This document shows positions 1,520 to 64,000 of a stretch of DNA of 64,000 bases, in pieces. The DNA comes from Liolophura sinensis (lineage: Eukaryota > Mollusca > Polyplacophora > Chitonida > Chitonidae), in contig NC_088303.1 of the NCBI RefSeq assembly GCF_032854445.1, positions 16,749,501 through 16,813,500 on the forward strand, given 5' to 3'. How positions within the stretch are numbered: position 1 is the stretch's first letter; every line of letters starts with the position of its first letter. The position numbers and the translations under genes were made by a program. The notes beneath the pieces are model-generated. The model had not been told where the DNA came from. It made no database searches and was given only the letters and a program-made list of their open reading frames with translations.

Positions 1520-2389
1520 TTTTTGTCCTGTTAGTCTGTATTTGCAATTTGTTAACATCTATTTTAGCTGTTTTTCATTTGATGTTTTAGTTAGATCAAA
1601 TGACTAACATATGGGTTTTCAACCTGGATGTATGCTAGTTGGAGATTTGATGACGTAAATTGCATCACCTAAAAGTTTCTCACATTACGTGGATTTTAGT
1701 TCATCTTGATAATGAAGGAATGGCTGTGATAATTTTAGCTGCTTTTTCCATCTTGGGTACTTTCCATGTATTGCACCGACAAGTTGGGGGTCAGTAGTGC
1801 ATGTGTGTAATGCTGGATCAAGGCCTCCATGGTGTGTCCATCATGTCAAGCGTTGATAATCATGGCGTAAATTAAGTGCTTTGACCATACACGCGCTCAG
1901 AATATACTGTGTTTATATTTATGAAATGTCAGTCCATCTAGATCAAAAGGGTGTGTAGTGGGATGAGTGTATGAAGGATGCATGTGTGGGTGTGGTATTA
2001 GATGCCCTTCAGTGAGGTACGCTGCTGTGTTTATGTTTCTTTGAACAGATTAATCACACATATCTGAAATGTCAAGCAGACAATGGTTTTTGTATAATCT
2101 TATCATTATAATAATAAAAATTATATAAAGTACGTCAAACTGCTACAAATAGTTTTACCTGGATTACTTTTTTTGACTTGTGGGATATTTATGATTTCTT
2201 TAATTCTCACTGTTCATATTCAGTAAGAGCTGGCTATGGTGTTACAGACATTATAAGTCTGAAAAAATGCCCACGACAGAAACCAAGGGATTCATCAGAA
2301 CTTCTTTTCTTTATTATTTCATGTACTTTTGTGTCTGCACTAGATGTTAATTAAACTCTTCATATTCCTCACCTTTGATGTATTTGCAG
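1520..2389. other. Upstream region or 5' intron of the EMI-like gene
   Basis: No coding signal. The pyrimidine-rich stretch and tttgcag just before 2390 look like a 3' splice site, which implies an untranslated first exon further upstream. I cannot place that exon or a promoter. Confidence 0.45.
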
Positions 2390-2577
2390 AAAAGACAGCG
2401 TGAGAGTCGCTTGTTAAGCGGGGAACGTAGCTGAGGGGGCTGTATCAGCACAATGGATCTGACAGGAGACTACAACCTCCCCTATGCTTTCTCTATATGT
2501 TTTATTGTGATGCTGCTATTCTTCGTGGCAGAGGGATCAGAATCTCAGAACCAGAAACGATGCACACAAATTGTCAA
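2390..2577 (+). CDS. EMI-like gene, exon with start codon (5' UTR 2390-2452)
   Basis: The exon is bounded by tttgcag before 2390 and a gtaagtg donor at 2578. The ATG at 2453 sits in good context (A at -3, G at +4), and an in-frame TGA at 2432-2434 rules out a longer frame. It encodes 41 residues: signal peptide, then the first EMI cysteine in RCTQIV. It ends in phase 2. Confidence 0.85.
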
Positions 2578-5500
2578 GTAAGTGATGAAACTTTATCAGT
2601 CTCTAGTAAATGTGTACTCCAGGCTATGGTCAAGTCATAATAGGTTTTAATAAAATTCATTAAATTTGGTTTGTTGAGTTCACGTTGTTATTTTGAGACG
2701 TGGCAAGGTACATAAATAAAGTTGATTTTGATAGTCTTTAACCTTAGACCTTGGTTAAGTTAAGTTTGACTTACATTTCTAGATTAGTATCTGATTTATC
2801 AGTATATTGCTCAGGGACAGAATTTTGTTTTCTTGGAAAGTGTCCGTCGCCAGGATTCTGCTTAATTGTTTAATGATGGATCGCTTATCCTGAGCATCTC
2901 TTGCTCTTGCATATGTTGTCATTACTGATATACTTATGGGAAGATGTTGATGTGGACGCTGAGTGAGTGGCAGGAATCGAGGATAATGTTAGCAGGGTCT
3001 TTTGTTCCTCAACAAGATGGTCAGTCAGGAGTATGGTATTGCCCTCAGTGTTGTCAGGCAGAGAATTGCCTACAGGCCTGGGTTTCACTTGACTCCACTT
3101 TGTGCAGTAGGTCCAAGTTTTGGCTATCATTCTTCAGTCCGAATTACTCGGTCACTTTATCAAAGATTTAGGTAGCAAGCGTCCTTAGTATGTAAGATAA
3201 TTGGAAATGTAAATAATCAATCAGGTTAACGGTCAGTGCAGTGGTCATGGTTCCAATGCTCTACCCACAATTCTGGTCCGCAGGAAGTGGGGGGGGGGAG
3301 TGAATTACAGCTGTGATTTGTCGTCCTGGTTACCCATGGCTGCACAATAATTGATTGCACTCGTTAGGATGTGTTTGCTGGCTGTACTTAACCAGGAGCG
3401 AGAGCTCATCGACAAACCTGAGAGGCCATTTAAAGTTACTGACCCTCATAAGCCCAGTGCTGCTCCTGTTCCGTCTGATATCATTCCCCAGGACTGATCC
3501 TCACCACCATCATACCCGGGGACCTTAAGCTCTGGTACATTTGCTCACTCTCACCCAGATCAGCTGATATATTTCCCCTATCAGTTGTAGAACCATCAAA
3601 TACTGCAGATTCACCGGATGAACCTGGCAACTTTCCTGAGCTTGTTCAGGTTTAACTAATCTGCGTATCTTCAGGTGTAATTTGATCACTTTTGCAAGGG
3701 AAGATTATATCTGGTGAATTATTCCATGTTCATTAGATGAGCAGAGATCTCAAAGATTTTCAGTCAAGAAAAGTTACATCTGCTGTGGGCTTCTTTTGAA
3801 TAAAATATTAGTGAATTTGTATGTAAAGAACCTAAGCAGCTACAAAATGTAGCAAATTTTTTCCAACAATTTGTACATGTGTAAAACATGTGTAAAACAC
3901 CAGGGGTTTTGTATGTAATACTTGTCTGTTACACAGTTCAGTGAAATCTTAATTTATTTGAATCGGGCAGCTCTGTCAAATTTAATTACTGGCTCTTTAA
4001 TTCATTAACACACATGTAAGTGTGTAAGAATGTATGATGAGTATGTGTGCCTAAGTTATGTCCACATTTCACTCCGTGCAGCAGTTAAGATTCTTACCAG
4101 ATACCTGAATAAAAATGGGAACCTGTATATAGACGTGGGGTAGTTTCTTGAGTATGATATCTGACAACATGAATGTACATGTCACTGAATTAGGGACCAA
4201 AGCAGCGTAGAGAAAAGTTAATTTACTGTTTTCTTTTATGTATACAGTTGTTAAGCTTCTTGCTGAAGCCATTTCGCTTGAATCGGGATGTCCACAGCAT
4301 TAAGGGATGTAATTAATCATACGCAGAGATGGAGACCAACCCATGTCTTGCCATGACAGCTGGCTTTATTCTGCCTGGGTTTTTTGACTGCAAACTATTT
4401 GACTTTACATCCTTTACCAAACTGTTCAGGAGAGAAGAAAAAGGTTGAAAGCTTCTGAAATGTTTATCCGTTATACACATGGATATAATCAATCAGTGTA
4501 ATGAAATTTGCTTGTGTCTTTAAGACTTTGTCCTAAAAACTCTTCAAGGTTAAGTTGGAGAAGAAGTGAAAAAAAAAAAAAACAGAAAAAGCAGAACGGA
4601 ATATGTATTACTTGCCACTTTCCTTGATTTAGCTGAAAGTCTTACACGGTTTTACTTAATTGAATTTGGAACCTGATAATGGTCTGCGGGTAAAGAATGG
4701 ATTTTGGCGTCGAATCATAGTAGCAGACGTGTCTGTAACAAAACGTCCAGTTAAGACTCTTGTGAAAGCCCGTATTTTCCTTGGCTACTAAATGACAGCC
4801 TGACTCTCGCAATAATCTTGCGACTGAATAATTTGATATTTGCCTCCGGTTGCTGTCCCTTGGAGCACGGGTAGGACCGTGTTACAGCCCTCCGTCTGCT
4901 GGAAGTCAGGAAGCTGGAAGTAAAGCCACCATTTAAAACATGGTCATATATAAATGTCTAAAAGCCAACCAATCAATGCACATGCCAAGGAGTAGTTATG
5001 AGAGTGTCGTTTTCAATTCTGGATACCTTTAAACCTGGCTCAGCGATCCCTCGCGGGATTTGGACGATCTAACAAATGGATTGGAGCTTTGGCAAGTCTC
5101 AGTTACAGGAGTTGTGATGCTAAATCCACAAATGGAATGATTGCTCTGGTTTTTGTATCTATTTGAGTCTTGCATAATGGACAGGAAATGTAGGCTGGGA
5201 TTGCGAGGAATACAGCCAACCTTTAGGAGATCAATAGTGGAGAAAGCATGTACATTGATGCTGCTGAGTACCCTGTTTGTGATGCCATAGCCATTGCAAC
5301 AAACATTTTTATTAGATTAGATGCGTTAAGCATAAAAAAGATTTAGAACAGAATACTGTGTGAAGTTGAAATGCTGACTTTGTCAGTGGAAGCCAGCAGT
5401 ACACCTTTCACTCATGCTGTGTGTTTTGATGGTGTTTATTTAAGCATATGTTAAGGGAGTTGTTTGGTCTAGACTCATTAAATTACATTTTTTGTGAACC

Positions 5501-56770: not shown

Positions 56771-56947
56771 TTACCTTGACAATTCCTTTACTCTTGACAT
56801 GAAGTTCAAGACACGATTTTTGTCGATGTCATTCTCCCAATGTCCGTCTCTCTTGAAGTGTGAACCAATGATCAATCCTGCTGCTTGTTGGAATTTGTGA
56901 ACATTTTCCTGTGTAACACCAGATCCCACTAACACTGGGATGGACAC
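56771..56947 (-). CDS. BtpA/SgcQ-family protein, C-terminal exon (58 aa plus stop)
   Basis: Read on the minus strand, this exon follows ...gtcacag and starts in phase 0 with VSIPVLVGSGVTQENV, continues AAGLIIGSHFKRDGHWENDI, and ends in FMSRVKELSR and TAA (stop at 56771-56773). The PVLxGSGVTxxNV, GxIxGSxFKxDG, N-xxD and RVxxFM pattern matches the C-terminus of BtpA/SgcQ proteins, which are TIM-barrel-like. In bacteria BtpA affects photosystem I stability. The animal members (C. elegans F13E9.13 type, annotated as mitochondrial) have no settled function. Earlier exons, which should carry most of the barrel, are not confidently visible and may lie beyond 64 kb. The array upstream carries copies of its splice acceptor. 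Confidence 0.8.
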   Translation of the reverse strand: MSIPVLVGSGVTQENVHKFQQAAGLIIGSHFKRDGHWENDIDKNRVLNFMSRVKELSR

Positions 56948-58690
56948 CTGTGACTGTACATCTACAACAGACAGAACACTGGGATGGACACCTGTGACTG
57001 TACATGTACAACAGACAGAACATTGAGGTGGACACCTCTGACTGCATATCTAAAACAGACAGAACACATTGATGGACACCTCTGACTGCACATCTACAAT
57101 AGACAAGACACACTGATGGACACCTCAGACAGTGCAATAAACAGAACACAGAGACAGACATTACAAAAGACAGAACGCTGGGATGGACACCTGTGACAGT
57201 ACAGCTTCAACAGACAGAACACTGGGGTGGACACCTAGAACCATACATCTACAACAGATAAAACACTGGGAGGGTCACCTGTGACAGTACAACAGGCAGA
57301 ACACTTGGATGGATGCCTCTGTACATCTCCAACAGACAGAACACAGTGATGTACACATGTGACAGTACAGCAGACAGAACACTGGGAGGAACACCTGTGA
57401 CAGTACAACAGGCAGAACACTTGGATGGACGCCTCTGTATACCTCCAACACACAGAACACAGTGATGTACACATGTGACAGTACAGCAGACAGGACACTG
57501 GGATGGACACCTGGGACCATACATCTACAACAGACAGAACACTGGGGTGGACACCTGGAACCATATATCTACAACAGACAGTGATGGACACATGTGACAG
57601 TATAGCAGACAGAACACTGGGATGGACACCTGGGACTGTACATCTACATTAGACAGAACACTGTGATGGACACCTACATGCAGGACCGTACATCTACAGC
57701 AGACAAAACACTGGGAGGGACACCTGTGACAGTACAAAAGCTAAAGCACTGGGATGGACACCTCTATACATCCGCAACAGACAGAACACAGTGATGGACA
57801 CATGTGGCAGTACAGCAGACAGAACACTGGGATGGACACCTGGGACCATACATCTACAACAGACAGAACACTGGGCTGGACACCTACATGCAGGACCGTA
57901 CATCTACAGCAGACAGAACACTGGGTGGACACCTCTATACATCTGCAACAGACAGAACACAGTGACAGACACCTGTGAGAGTACAAAAAAACAGAAACTG
58001 GGATGGACACCTCTGACTAGACATCCACAACACACAGAAAACAGGGATCGACACCTCTGACACTACATCTACACCAGTACACAAGACAGACCACTGGGAT
58101 GGAAATCTGTAACAGTACATAAGACAGAACACTGGGACAGATATGTGTGACAGTACACAAGACTGATCATTGGGATTGACACCTGTGACAGTACAAAAGA
58201 CAGAACACTGGGATGGACACCTGTAACAGTACACAAGACAGAAAACTGGGATGGACACCTGTAACAGTACACAAGACAGAAATCTGGGATGGACACTTGT
58301 AACAGTACACATGACAGAACACTGGGATGGACGTCTGTGACAGTACATAAGACAGAACACTGGGATAGACACGTGTGACACTACACAAGACAGAACACTG
58401 GGATAGACACGTGTGACAGTACACAAGACAGACCACTGGGATGGACACCTATAACAGTACACAAGACAGAACACTGGGATGGACACCTGTGACAGTACAC
58501 AAGACAGAACACTGTGATGGACGTCTGTAACAGTACACAAGACAGAACACTGGGATGGACGTCTGTGACAGTACACAAGACAGAACACTGAGATGGACAC
58601 CTGTAACAGAACACATGACAGAACACTGGGATGGATATCTGTGACAGTACACAAGACAGAACAATGGGATGAACAATGGAGATTTAGGTA
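56930..58690 (-). repeat. 38/44-bp minisatellite built from a splice acceptor, about 43 copies
   Basis: On the minus strand each unit contains ctgtcacag followed by gtgtccatcccagtgtt, which is the 3' splice site and first 17 bases of the BtpA-like exon at 56947. Near the exon the unit is 44 bp (with tgttgtagatgtac). Further away it is 38 bp (with cttgtgtac). In the middle, three variant units form higher-order repeats of about 117 bp. Since 3 x 38 is divisible by three, minus-strand frames up to 252 codons stay open. They are not genes. The array occupies the 3' end of the intron. Confidence 0.92.
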
Positions 58691-59370
58691 CACTGAACAG
58701 AACAGCTGAAAAGATTAGGAACAAAGACAACGGAATCAAAATTTTCTGAATTTCTTTTTGTGTTAAGTTCATGTTTGAAACTCACACAGCTTCAGGATTT
58801 AAAATATGGTAAACATGTTTTTATCATTTTCATACCCATGAACAAAGTTCTTTGCTTGATAGCGTAACTTGTCCGGATCGGGCATTTGTGCCATCACACA
58901 CTGGTTAACAGAACCAATCAGAGTTGATCCTTGGAAGGATACTTCACTTGGGAAAGAACAGGAATGATCTCAAGTAGAAGGTATATACTTATCTGGAAAC
59001 TTCAATTTGATTGACACGGTCTTAATTGCTTACCCACTATCTGGATGATTTTAATATTTGTTGATGCCTCTACATTCAGCAGGGAAATTAAGATGAATCC
59101 ATCAGATATTAGGAAAAATTGATCCTAGTACACGAGAATAAATCTGAAAGGTTAGCCACTGGATGCTAGTGAGGGGAGAAGTATGTCTGAATCATTAGAC
59201 TCTACTGAACACGGACATTGGCAGCAATCAATTCCACAACAAACACCCTGATATCAACACGGTCAACTCAAAAATCTCTATGAACAAATTGCAAAAGTGT
59301 AAAATGGCATGCAATAATTCTTTGGTATCATCAAGCTAGTGGAAAGGAATCAGAAGAACATCATGGCTCA
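58691..59370. other. Intron or spacer between two arrays
   Basis: Apart from the candidate exon at 58836-58929, no feature was seen. Confidence 0.45.
58836..58929 (-). CDS. Candidate internal exon (30 codons), possibly of the BtpA-like gene
   Basis: On the minus strand a pyrimidine-rich stretch and ttccaag precede 58929, and gtatga follows 58836. One frame is open and includes QMPDPDKLRYQAKNFVH. A run like PDPDxLRxAK would fit just before the IPVLVGSGVT segment in BtpA proteins. Against it, the exon would end in phase 2 while the exon at 56947 starts in phase 0, and the usual TG-xATG motif is not seen. It could be chance or an exon of another transcript. Confidence 0.2.
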
Positions 59371-59379
59371 TAATATGTA

Positions 59380-61992
59380 TGAAATAAATAATAAAAGGGT
59401 AAGAGATCAGCATCAGGAAACGAGTACAAAGGAAACAGAAAAACATCATGGTTCATAATATGTATGAAATAAATAACACAGGGATGAGAGACCAGCATCA
59501 GGAAACGGGTACAAAGGAAACAGAAAAACATCATGGTTCATAATATGTATGAAATAAATAACACAGGGATGAGAGACCAGCATCAGGAAACGAGTACAAA
59601 GGAAACAGAAAAGCATCATGGTTCATAATATGTATGAAATAAATAACACAGGGATGAGAGACCAGCATCAGGAAACAGGTACAAAGGAAACAGAAAAACA
59701 TCATGGTTCATAATATGTATGAAATAAATAACACAGGGATGAGAGACCAGCATCAGGAAACGGGTACAAAGGAAACAGAAAAACATCATGGCTCATATGA
59801 TGTATGAAATAAATAACACAGGGGTGAGACATCAGCATCAGGAAACGAGTACAAAGGAAACAGAAAAACATCATGGTTCATAATATGTATGAAATAAATA
59901 ACACAGGGATGAGAGACCAGCATCAGCAAATGACTACAAAGGAAACAGAAAAACATCATGGTTCATAATATGTATGAAATAAATAACACAGGGATGAGAG
60001 ACCAGCATCAGGAAACAGGTACAAAGGAAACAGAAAAACATCATGGTTCATAATATGTATGAAATAAATAACACAGGGATGAGAGACCAGCATCAGGAAA
60101 CGGGTACAAAGGAAACAGAAAAACATCATGGTTCATTATATGTATGAAATAAATAACACAGGGATGAGAGACCAGCATCAGCAAATGACTACAAAGGAAA
60201 CAGAAAAACATCATGGTTCATAATATGTATGAAATAAATAACACAGGGATGAGAGACCAGCATCAGGAAACGGGTACAAAGGAAACAGAAAAACATCATG
60301 GTTCATAATATGTATGAAATAAATAACACAGGGATGAGAGACCAGCATCAGGAAACGGGTACAAAGGAAACAGAAAAACATCATGGTTCATAATATGTAT
60401 GAAATAAATAACACAGGGGTGAGACATCAGCATCAGGAAATGAGAACAAAGGAAACAGAAAAGCATCACGGTTCATAATATGTATGAAATAAATAACACA
60501 GGGATGAGAGACCAGCATCAGGAAACGGGTACAAAGGAAACAGAAAAGCATCATGGTTCATAATATGTATGAAATAAATAACACAGGGATGAGAGACCAG
60601 CATCAGGAAACGGGTACAAAGGAAACAGAAAAGCATCATGGTTCATAATATGTATGAAATAAATAACACAGGGATGAGAGACCAGCATCAGGAAACGGGT
60701 ACAAAGGAAACAGAAAAACATCATGGTTCATAATATGTATGAAATAAATAACACAGGGATGAGAGACCAGCATCAGGAAACGGGTACAAAGGAAACAGAA
60801 AAACATCATGGCTCATAATGTATGAAATAAATAACACAGGGGTGAGACATCAGCATCAGGAAACGAGTACAAAGGAAACAGAAAAACATCATGGTTCATA
60901 ATATGTATGAAATAAATAACACAGGGGTGAGACATCAGCATCAGGAAACGAGTACAAAGGAAACAGAAAAGCATCACGGTTCATAATATGTGTGAAATAA
61001 ATAACACAGGGATGAGAGACCAGCATCAGGAAATGGGTACAAAGGAAACAGAAAAGCATCATGGTTCATAATATGTATGAAATAAATAACACAGGGATGA
61101 GAGACCAGCATCAGGAAACGGGTACAAAGAAAACAGAAAAACATCATGGTTCATAATATGTATGAAATAAATAACACAGGGATGAGAGACCAGCATCAGG
61201 AAATGAGTACAAAGCAAACAGAAAAACATCATGGCTCATAATATGTATGAAATAAATAACACAGGGGTGAGAGATCAGCATCAGGAAACGGGTACAAAGG
61301 AAACAGAAAAACATCATGGTTCATAATATGTATGAAATAAATAACACAGGGATGAGAGACCAGCATCAGGAAACAGGTACAAAGGAAACAGAAAAACATC
61401 ATGGTTCATAATATGTATGAAATAAATAACACAGGGATGAGAGACCAGCATCAGGAAACGGGTACAAAGGAAACAGAAAAACATCATGGTTCATAATATG
61501 TATGAAATAAATAACACAGGGGTGAGAGATCAGCATCAGGAAACGAGTACAAAGGAAACAGAAAAACATCATGGTTCATAATATGTATGAAATAAATAAC
61601 ACAGGGATGAGAGACCAGCATCAGGAAACGGGTACAAAGGAAACAGAAAAACATCATGGTTCATAATATGTATGAAATAAATAACACAGGGATGAGAGAT
61701 CAGCATCAGGAAACGGGTACAAAGGAAACAGAAAAACATCATGGTTCATAATATGTATGAAATAAATAACACAGGGATGAGAGACCAGCATCAGGAAACG
61801 AGTACAAAGGAAACAGAAAAGCATCATGGTTCATAATATGTATGAAATAAATAACACAGGGATGAGAGACCAGCATCAGGAAACGGGTACAAAGGAAACA
61901 GAAAAACATCATGGTTCATAATATGTATGAAATAAATAACACAGGGATGAGAGACCAGCATCAGGAAACGGGTACAAAGCAAACAGAAAAGC
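59380..61992. repeat. 85-bp minisatellite, about 31 copies
   Basis: Units of 85 bp: gaaataaataacacagggat, gagagaccagcatcaggaaa, cgggtacaaaggaaacag and aaaaacatcatggttcataa, then tatgtat. Most units are nearly identical. Recurring variants (gggtgagacatcag, aaatgactac, aagcatca) are spread in patterns that suggest block duplications. Stops in all frames rule out coding. The array probably lies in an intron of the minus-strand gene. Confidence 0.95.
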
Positions 61993-62184
61993 ATAATAGC
62001 AAGTCATCTGAAATATGAAAAACTAATACGTGAAAAGTAGATCTCAACACAAAACCTTTCCCCAATATAGTGTTCAGTATGTCATACACTGGGCAGTTTG
62101 AAAGCAAATGTAAAATCTGCATCATTGGGCAACTATACGTGGAACAGAACAACATAACAGCAAGTCGTCTTGATATGAGACCAC

Positions 62185-62365
62185 TGCAGCTGCGTGATGA
62201 TTAGAGCATCTGCCTCCAAGTCAGGAGACCTGAGATCAAACTCAGGCTGGGTCGTACCAAAGACTTTAAAAATGGTACTAGAACAAAGAAATTGGGCTGG
62301 TTGGCCCTGTGTCATATGACTGAAAACCCCCAAGTCTACATACATATCCATGTAACAGCTTTGAA
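62185..62365 (+). mobile_element. tRNA-derived SINE, family 2
   Basis: It has a tRNA-like head: gcgtgatgattagagcatct (box A region) and gacctgagatcaaactcagg (box B region). Then come gactttaaaaatggtact and ggctggttggccctgtgtca. It shares this order with 44,860-45,075. Confidence 0.75.
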
Positions 62366-63969
62366 GTAAATAATAAGCAGGTAGAAGATCTTAAGTGCAA
62401 CTCCTTTAACAAGGAATTAGAAAACCTGCGTTAATGTTGCAGACAAAACATTATTTACATATAGTATATGCTATATACACATACCCGTATCAGGTAAATG
62501 ACAAGCACTTAGTGTAGTATACAAACCACCAAGTTATATAACAACAATCAGAAAACCTAACAACAAAATGTTTAATATGAAGTAACTAATAAGGTAAGAA
62601 GAGAACTAGCAAACCGTCAGTATGGCCAATGACATGGGAATAAGAGAACCAAATGACAAACTACATATCATCAAGTTCAGGTAACAGATAAAGGAATGAG
62701 GTCACTTAACCATCAAGAATATCATCATGTAACTGATAACAGTAAAGAGAACTTAATGGTTAAGCCTCCAGCAATCCACCTGCATTATCGACTGACTGAC
62801 GAGGAAAATAACAGAACCTGTGACAACTAACATCTTTGTGTAGTCTTACAAAAGGAACACATACGCAGACAATAGTAAAACCTTCAGCTTCAGCATTACC
62901 AATTTGCTGAAAAGAAAATGAGGAAAACGTATAATACTGTAACTGATAAGTGAGCAGCAGAATGGAGAGTCAAACCACATGGCGGCTTCAATAAGTAACT
63001 GATTTAAGAATAGGCTTGACCTGACAACATCTGCCAACAAATACGCCTCCTTCAAGGAGACGCATTAAAACAGAACTGAAATAATTTGTTTCTAAAATCT
63101 AACCATGCATGTTGACACAGTTTCACAATGTTCATAAGCAAAGGAGGAATAACGTGTTCTCAGCTAAGTGGCGAATTCTTTAGGTAGAGTCCTATATTAA
63201 TTTCTCTGTCTCTCTCCATCCCTGCTTCTTTTCCTAGCCCGAGAGTCTAATAAATCAAAAATATTTTTCAATACCATTTCCTAGGGTTATTAAAGATTAG
63301 CCCAGTGAACCAGGCATAAGACACCAGGATCAATAATGAGCTGCCATATGCTGAGGCCGAATGAGCTGCTGACACATATCACGAGTGGAAGGCCCCAGTG
63401 GACAGACATAGAAACTGTTATATTAAAAGCTGTTCATAAAACAAAGGGGACCGAAAAAAAAAATTAAATAAAAAATCAGTAACAAGAACTGATCCCAGAA
63501 GACAGAAAGCAACATGTGACTGTATATGAAACACACAAAACCTGCCCATAAAAGTACATGTAGGTATCAATGGTAGCGGTATATCCTAACGCTACCAGGT
63601 ACACATACCAGATAAATGTATATATACAAACACAACATGTATGTCATTTCTCCCACCATTTTAACACATCATTTACCTTGAGTATTAAAAAAAACACATT
63701 GACAATTTTTAAATTTCAGTGTAGATGGTTACTTAAAATGATTTAAGCACTGGTATTTCCAATGATGTAATAACAAATCTTAATAAAACTTGCTAGTATG
63801 TGAAATACTGTACTCTGTCCCCAAAACTGTGAGGACTCCACATGACAACAAACAATTGTTCATTACAGTGGTTTATTTATTTAGAACCAGCAATGGCTGA
63901 CAGCCATGGTAAAGAACAACAACAACTAATTTTAAAGTAACACATACAGCTATTAAGGTTATTTTGACT
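62366..63969. other. AT-rich spacer or intron, no exon recognised
   Basis: I looked on the minus strand for the N-terminal and middle parts of a BtpA-type barrel and found none. A pyrimidine-rich run (tctctgtctctctccatccc) lies at about 63,204. Confidence 0.45.
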
Positions 63970-64000
63970 ATTGTTTAACGCCTTACTCAAGATTGTTTTC
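63970..64000 (-). mobile_element. Family 1 SINE cut by the window edge, minus strand
   Basis: ttgtttaacgccttactcaa followed by gattgttttc resembles the inverted 3' end of family 1 (tgtttcacgccgtactcaag). The rest lies outside the window. Confidence 0.45.

Follow-up and report, generated by a model that had tools for sequence, protein, structure and literature searches.

The last coding exon of a BtpA-family gene in the chiton Liolophura sinensis is contiguous with a minisatellite of some 43 tandem units, the terminal one of which straddles the exon's own 3' splice site. We interpret this array as a splice-junction minisatellite of the kind termed 'mirages' in amphioxus, which probably arose by local duplication of the start of the exon and within which the true site is probably picked by exon definition. 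The kind of structure is known; what is added here is a mollusc case that, as a small sample suggests, is not isolated in its genome.

To place the array in its gene, we searched the genome (609,464,459 bases, 632 contigs) with the PF03437 (BtpA) profile. This search located three exons, all on the minus strand of C9, the contig that holds the 64,000-nt stretch analysed here (the window, C9:16749501-16813500), and no match outside them. A bacterial relative used as query recovered the same three exons and a fourth on C9; the first 40 residues of this query found no match in the genome, so that the N-terminal part of the gene is absent from our model. The four exons, separated by introns of 2,560, 862 and 8,903 bp, join in frame to yield 218 residues and a stop codon. 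Membership of the family is evidenced by the last exon alone, which scored 60.4 bits on PF03437 (cut-off 30), and by the last two exons joined, which scored 80.1. The best segment of the chiton protein is 53-65% identical to bacterial proteins, many of them from Bacteroidetes, Ignavibacteria-like and Chloroflexi records, and a search of PDB sequences gave two weak, unrelated matches. The gene and the arrays of its last intron are laid out as follows (positions without contig are those of the window).

C9:16819252-16819066, 16816505-16816355, 16815492-16815365 and 16806461-16806271, minus strand: the four BtpA-family exons
56771..56961, minus strand: last coding exon, 191 nt including the stop codon, placed by PF03437 match, splice model and homology
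56962..64000, continuing outside the window to C9:16815364, minus strand: last intron, 8,903 bp in all
56931..58675, minus strand: the minisatellite, 1,745 bp in 44 aligned rows, the last being the exon's own, delimited by wrap-around alignment and TRF
59343..61994, minus strand: second array in the same last intron, 85-bp unit, 31.2 copies, 95% matches (TRF)

We saw no relation between the 85-bp array and the BtpA exon, and viewing of the 75-bp and 122-bp arrays of the window by eye identified no adjoining exon. Likewise, a BtpA-like peptide near 62200 on the minus strand (LEADALIIT) was rejected by eye, since it resembled a tRNA-derived repeat.

We then assessed the position of the last-exon acceptor against the best 80 of 177 confirmed bacterial loci (L005-L084). 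The comparison places the putative acceptor at TTGTAG/ATGTAC (CTGTCTGTTGTAG/ATGTAC), with 56962 as the last intron base, 14 nt upstream of the site proposed in the initial annotation. With the consensus-like donor ACAG/GTAACA, the acceptor TTGTAG/AT is in phase and restores seven residues, the preferred junction joining GTGACAG to ATGTACAGTC (likewise written ATGTACAGTCACAG). The resulting protein join (...NPQQVT + DVQSQVSIPV) left one gap position in 77 of the 80 alignments, none in two and seven in one. When all four exons were joined, the TTGTAG start was the best of five splice models in 81 of 81 matched frames; two upstream in-frame acceptors, adding 10 and 12 residues, averaged 249.2 and 248.7 bits versus 256.2 and were rejected. 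The initial annotation had instead begun the last exon at CACAG/GTGTCC (GTGTCCATC), quoting as acceptor ctgtcacag where the exon itself reads CAGTCACAG. This start is out of frame with ACAG/GTAACA, and its rescue requires the penultimate exon to end at CAA/GTGACA, the less consensus-like of the two adjacent donors. The combination is in frame, and CACAG is indeed kept in 33 of 42 upstream units of the array. However, it lacks seven residues that the bacterial relatives have, leaving eight gap positions in 78 of 80 alignments and seven in the other two. The TTGTAG start outscored it for every one of the 80 relatives, with margins of 2 to 17 bits; the mean over four exons was 247.8 bits versus 256.2 (a margin of ~8), and the Pfam score over the last two exons was 65.4 versus 80.1. 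These margins are individually modest and uniformly in the same direction, and they make the CACAG start very improbable. With the TTGTAG acceptor preferred, the CACAG/G of the earlier proposal (56947..56952, minus strand) reads as coding sequence. A last exon starting elsewhere had been named in advance as grounds against the whole reading; homology does move the start, yet the shift of 14 nt keeps the boundary within the unit. The original observation was therefore sound, with its splice site misplaced by 14 nt.

The anatomy of the array is directly visible. Wrap-around alignment to the 44-bp exon-spanning unit breaks it down into one partial row followed by 42 upstream units and, last, the copy in the exon itself. 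This bears out the ~43 tandem copies counted originally, in addition to that of the exon, and TRF also reports the array. The array ends the 8.9-kb intron and its terminal copy enters the last coding exon, contributing 13 intron and 31 coding bases according to the boundary set by homology, rather than the 17 coding bases first attributed to the unit.

56962..56974, minus strand: intron bases of the terminal unit, ctgtctgttgtag, with the putative acceptor at their end
56931..56961, minus strand: the 31 coding bases of the terminal unit, read as DVQSQVSIPVL
56975..57018, minus strand: nearest upstream unit, one base from the terminal unit, the acceptor G (TAG to TAC)
58128..58659, minus strand: distal block, fourteen consecutive 38-bp units (rows 2-15), with the acceptor region mostly deleted

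The most frequent unit lengths are 38 bp, in 19 rows, and 44 bp, in 8 including the exon copy, the other full rows measuring 26 to 50 bp; lengths are mixed over this same range (26-50 bp) from row 16 onward. Mean identity of the 42 upstream units to the exon-spanning unit was 73% over the 13 intronic positions and 83% over the 31 exonic ones. The exonic CACAG is retained in 33 of these 42 units; an AG occupies the acceptor position in 14, a count for which the 38-bp units cannot be aligned with certainty. Copies farther from the exon were no less identical to the exon unit than nearer ones (rho 0.14, P 0.38), and the copies thus give no sign of where growth began. At unit position 20, the A of the exon was matched in 24% of the copies; the exon is therefore not the consensus there, which speaks against the simple picture.

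The protein sense of the exonic part nonetheless points to the exon as the source and the array as the derivative, as had been proposed. On a profile built from the bacterial relatives, the 11 residues DVQSQVSIPVL scored 14.2 of a possible 31.7. Among the 70,422 stop-free 11-mers in the six frames of the window, one other reached this score, CVVSHVSIPVF, which is read from the array itself. The 31 coding bases of the terminal unit further strengthen the view of the exon as seed. Genome searches with a 20-mer of the unit (one mismatch at most) and with an 88-base unit dimer yielded at least 8 and at least 26 matches, respectively, counts to be read as lower bounds, with common words possibly skipped in the search. 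All 8 and all 26 fell inside the array. The same repeat at unrelated loci, which would have made its overlap with the exon a coincidence of insertion, was thus not found, and a dispersed or mobile repeat was rejected on the same searches, which returned the array locus only (with the same reserve on common words). On these grounds, we infer that the 44 bp straddling the last BtpA acceptor (13 intron and 31 exon bases) would have been duplicated in tandem, and that ordinary minisatellite turnover would have multiplied the copies into the intron, where they may be tolerated. At the edge of the array, the copy within the exon would be preserved by coding selection, and the upstream copies would be spliced out with the intron.

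Two other histories can be weighed against this origin by local duplication. The order could be reversed, with the array present first and the 5' end of the exon recruited from it by capture of a splice site from the repeat. The near-identity of array and exon copy at their border, where the nearest unit differs at one base, would fit such a capture. However, the exonic part carries a family-like protein sense equalled by a single one of 70,421 other 11-mers, itself an array copy, and it aligns to the bacterial relatives without a large gap, so that recruitment from the array appears quite improbable. Alternatively, the intron itself could have been born by tandem duplication of an AG/GT proto-splice site, leaving the array as a remnant. 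The units do carry AG/GT, within CACAG/GTGTCC, and this route has been proposed for amphioxus globin introns (PMC3087553) and, in the account of PMC2891723, for some fruit-fly introns. An intron of this origin would have both ends in copies of the duplicated unit; here the unit was found at the acceptor end only, with the donor 8.9 kb from the array and no copy at the donor end in the unit search. The copies also include 13 intronic bases, which makes the acceptor older than the duplication. We therefore regard birth of the intron from the repeat as scarcely credible, and retain local duplication of the exon start as the probable origin.

The spliceosome would meet many near-identical decoys ahead of the true acceptor, in line with the dozens announced in the initial annotation. 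We counted 98 AGs upstream of the true site (58690 to 56963). With the corrected, phase-1 donor, 90 of them lead to a stop inside the array and six to a frameshift, the remaining two being in frame (+10 or +12 residues). The expectation that most upstream choices would shift the frame or meet a stop is thus upheld for 96 of 98 AGs; read in the frame first proposed, the nearest unit does run through nine codons into TAG, as described. From −20 to +3, the following two decoys match the inferred acceptor base for base:

57525..57544, minus strand: decoy acceptor, last base of the AG at 57525
57854..57873, minus strand: decoy acceptor, last base of the AG at 57854

With two decoys equal to the true site over this span, the choice must depend on more than local site strength. 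On the other hand, the true site alone is followed by the remainder of the exon and by the end of the transcript, which makes exon definition the best account. We thus infer that the true acceptor would be chosen through the attached exon body and the transcript end and not through a better local sequence. The same decoys could serve a different end, namely that some are used and tune the gene, upstream splicing giving a truncated protein and copy number setting the output. The two identical decoys and the 90 upstream AGs that lead to a stop inside the array are what such a device would need, and minisatellite units are reportedly used as donors in human IFI6 (PMC4526556). Nothing in this analysis indicates decoy use, and regular splicing is reported for amphioxus mirages (PMC3087553). 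Tuning by decoys is accordingly unlikely in our judgement, and choice of the true site by exon definition remains the probable reading.

We further looked for comparable arrays at exons of other genes. The sample comprised 30 of 50 CCT, 28 of 49 DEAD and all 20 AAA matches, that is, 78 exon loci, with splice sites assigned by eye from the sequence and the profile edges, and an array was counted when its unit included a splice site together with 8 or more exon bases. Five of the 78 loci carried one (CCT, 3/30; DEAD, 2/28), and the AAA sample had none (0/20).

L091, on C8: donor array, 66 bp
L099, on C8: donor array, about 60 bp
L102, C1:72038329-72038478 with flanks, minus strand: CCT exon whose last ~100 bases and donor lie in a 109-bp array
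L121, C23:59442-59720 with flanks, minus strand: DEAD-box exon with a 47-bp acceptor array, 12.8 copies
L135, C5:2930361-2930540 with flanks, minus strand: DEAD-box exon whose 3' end and donor lie in a 65-bp array, at least 24 copies

The closest parallel to the BtpA array is L121, where the acceptor and the first ~23 exon bases are repeated. L102 holds seven donor copies, the exon's own counted, with self-copies 95-100% identical, and L135 holds 17 donor matches, likewise with the exon's own, in an array that reaches the end of the examined segment. When the L099 exon was cut at its first donor and joined to the following one, one frame continued across the junction without a stop. As L091 and L099 lie ~1.2 kb apart, seemingly in one gene, the five arrays are not fully independent. 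Such similarly built arrays elsewhere in the genome, together with the mirages described in amphioxus (PMC3087553), argue against a singular oddity.

The count of five was made after excluding L100, L156 and the BtpA loci L001-L003, the finding itself included. At L100 (C8:53412069-53412482 with flanks, minus strand), a CCT exon, a 41-bp array ends at the acceptor and takes in practically no exon base; ~10 bases after the donor of the same exon begins a 27-bp array of 42.8 copies. The L156 array begins 24 nt beyond the match edge. In the BtpA locus L002, the donor region (gene strand ~1687-1720) resembles the unit of a 33-bp array of 23 copies deeper in the intron (2317-3078), with about 3 exon bases involved. 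Some CCT and DEAD matches were found in long open frames of 604 (C6:7824721-7826547), 779 (C1:56789306) and 751 aa (C8:41676018-41677181), which greatly exceed the matches in length and could in part be stop-free repeats in introns; no array was found at the last of these loci (L117).

Of the 234,000 bases that flank the 78 sampled matches, 10.7% lie in arrays. If placement were blind to junctions, 16.6 boundaries would be expected in arrays out of at most 156 (an upper bound, as profile edges are not always exon edges), and this expectation exceeds the five observed. If one unit were seeded at random, the expectation would be 1.8 (five or more, P 0.04); before the AAA sample it had been 1.6 (P 0.025). 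The two nulls bracket the observed five, and an affinity of arrays for junctions is thus possible but not required by these numbers.

Splice-junction minisatellites may be a frequent feature of the chiton genome. A bolder version would make them a standing genome-wide feature, with exons as permanent seeds whose last copy is protected by coding selection and with selection editing the decoys. We hold this as a tentative possibility, more doubted than favoured. Hints of decoy editing are the nearest copy, which departs from the terminal unit at the acceptor G alone (a single case, and no more than a hint of selection), and the retention of AG in 14 of 42 units versus CACAG in 33 of 42. However, array copies are not independent, and a single founder deletion could explain this difference in retention. 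Arrays such as that of the BtpA gene offer a natural means to test exon definition, for acceptors as for donors, and the genome-wide version, if true, would make available numerous naturally matched sets of true and false splice sites in which choice could be tested. If the arrays are as frequent as the small sample suggests (5/78), they would matter for the annotation of chiton genes and may feed new introns or exons, as proposed for amphioxus in PMC3087553. A mollusc case would also suggest that such arrays arise wherever minisatellites are often born.

We found no report of splice-junction arrays in a mollusc in the open-licence literature, partly among the top matches listed, and the main text of the chiton genome paper (PMC11068029) has no word beginning 'satellite'. 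The nearest known systems are the amphioxus mirages, described as tandem repeats of intron/exon boundaries that vary in length, seemingly do not interfere with regular splicing and might create introns (PMC3087553). Like them, the chiton units straddle an intron-exon border and contain bases from both sides, the genome has acceptor as well as donor forms, and many copies, not all, keep the splice signals (AG in 14 of 42 chiton units). Unit lengths overlap as well, at 10-72 bp in amphioxus Adh3 and mostly 38-50 bp in the chiton. The chiton array differs in belonging to a mollusc instead of a cephalochordate and in its ~43 copies, as compared with 6 and 3 in two BflGb6 haplotypes. In amphioxus, tests addressed variation in array length and the integrity of splicing, whereas the chiton array is known from the sequence of one assembly. 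Similar tandem repeats overlapping splice sites are reported in lancelet PGBD5 (PMC3902484), where they are described as imperfect duplications, in another phylum than the chiton. Intron gain from AG/GT proto-splice sites, as presented in PMC2891723, shares with the chiton array the multiplication of splice signals by tandem duplication, but the chiton intron seems older than its array and the donor lies outside the repeat. Finally, the minisatellite of human IFI6 (6-16) is described as carrying multiple splice donors, two downstream units of which are said to be used, giving three mRNAs. The chiton minisatellite units also carry a splice site. Unlike those of IFI6, for which use is reported, they are known from their sequence, and the site in the BtpA array is an acceptor and not a donor; donor arrays of the IFI6 type are found in this genome at L091, L099, L102 and L135.
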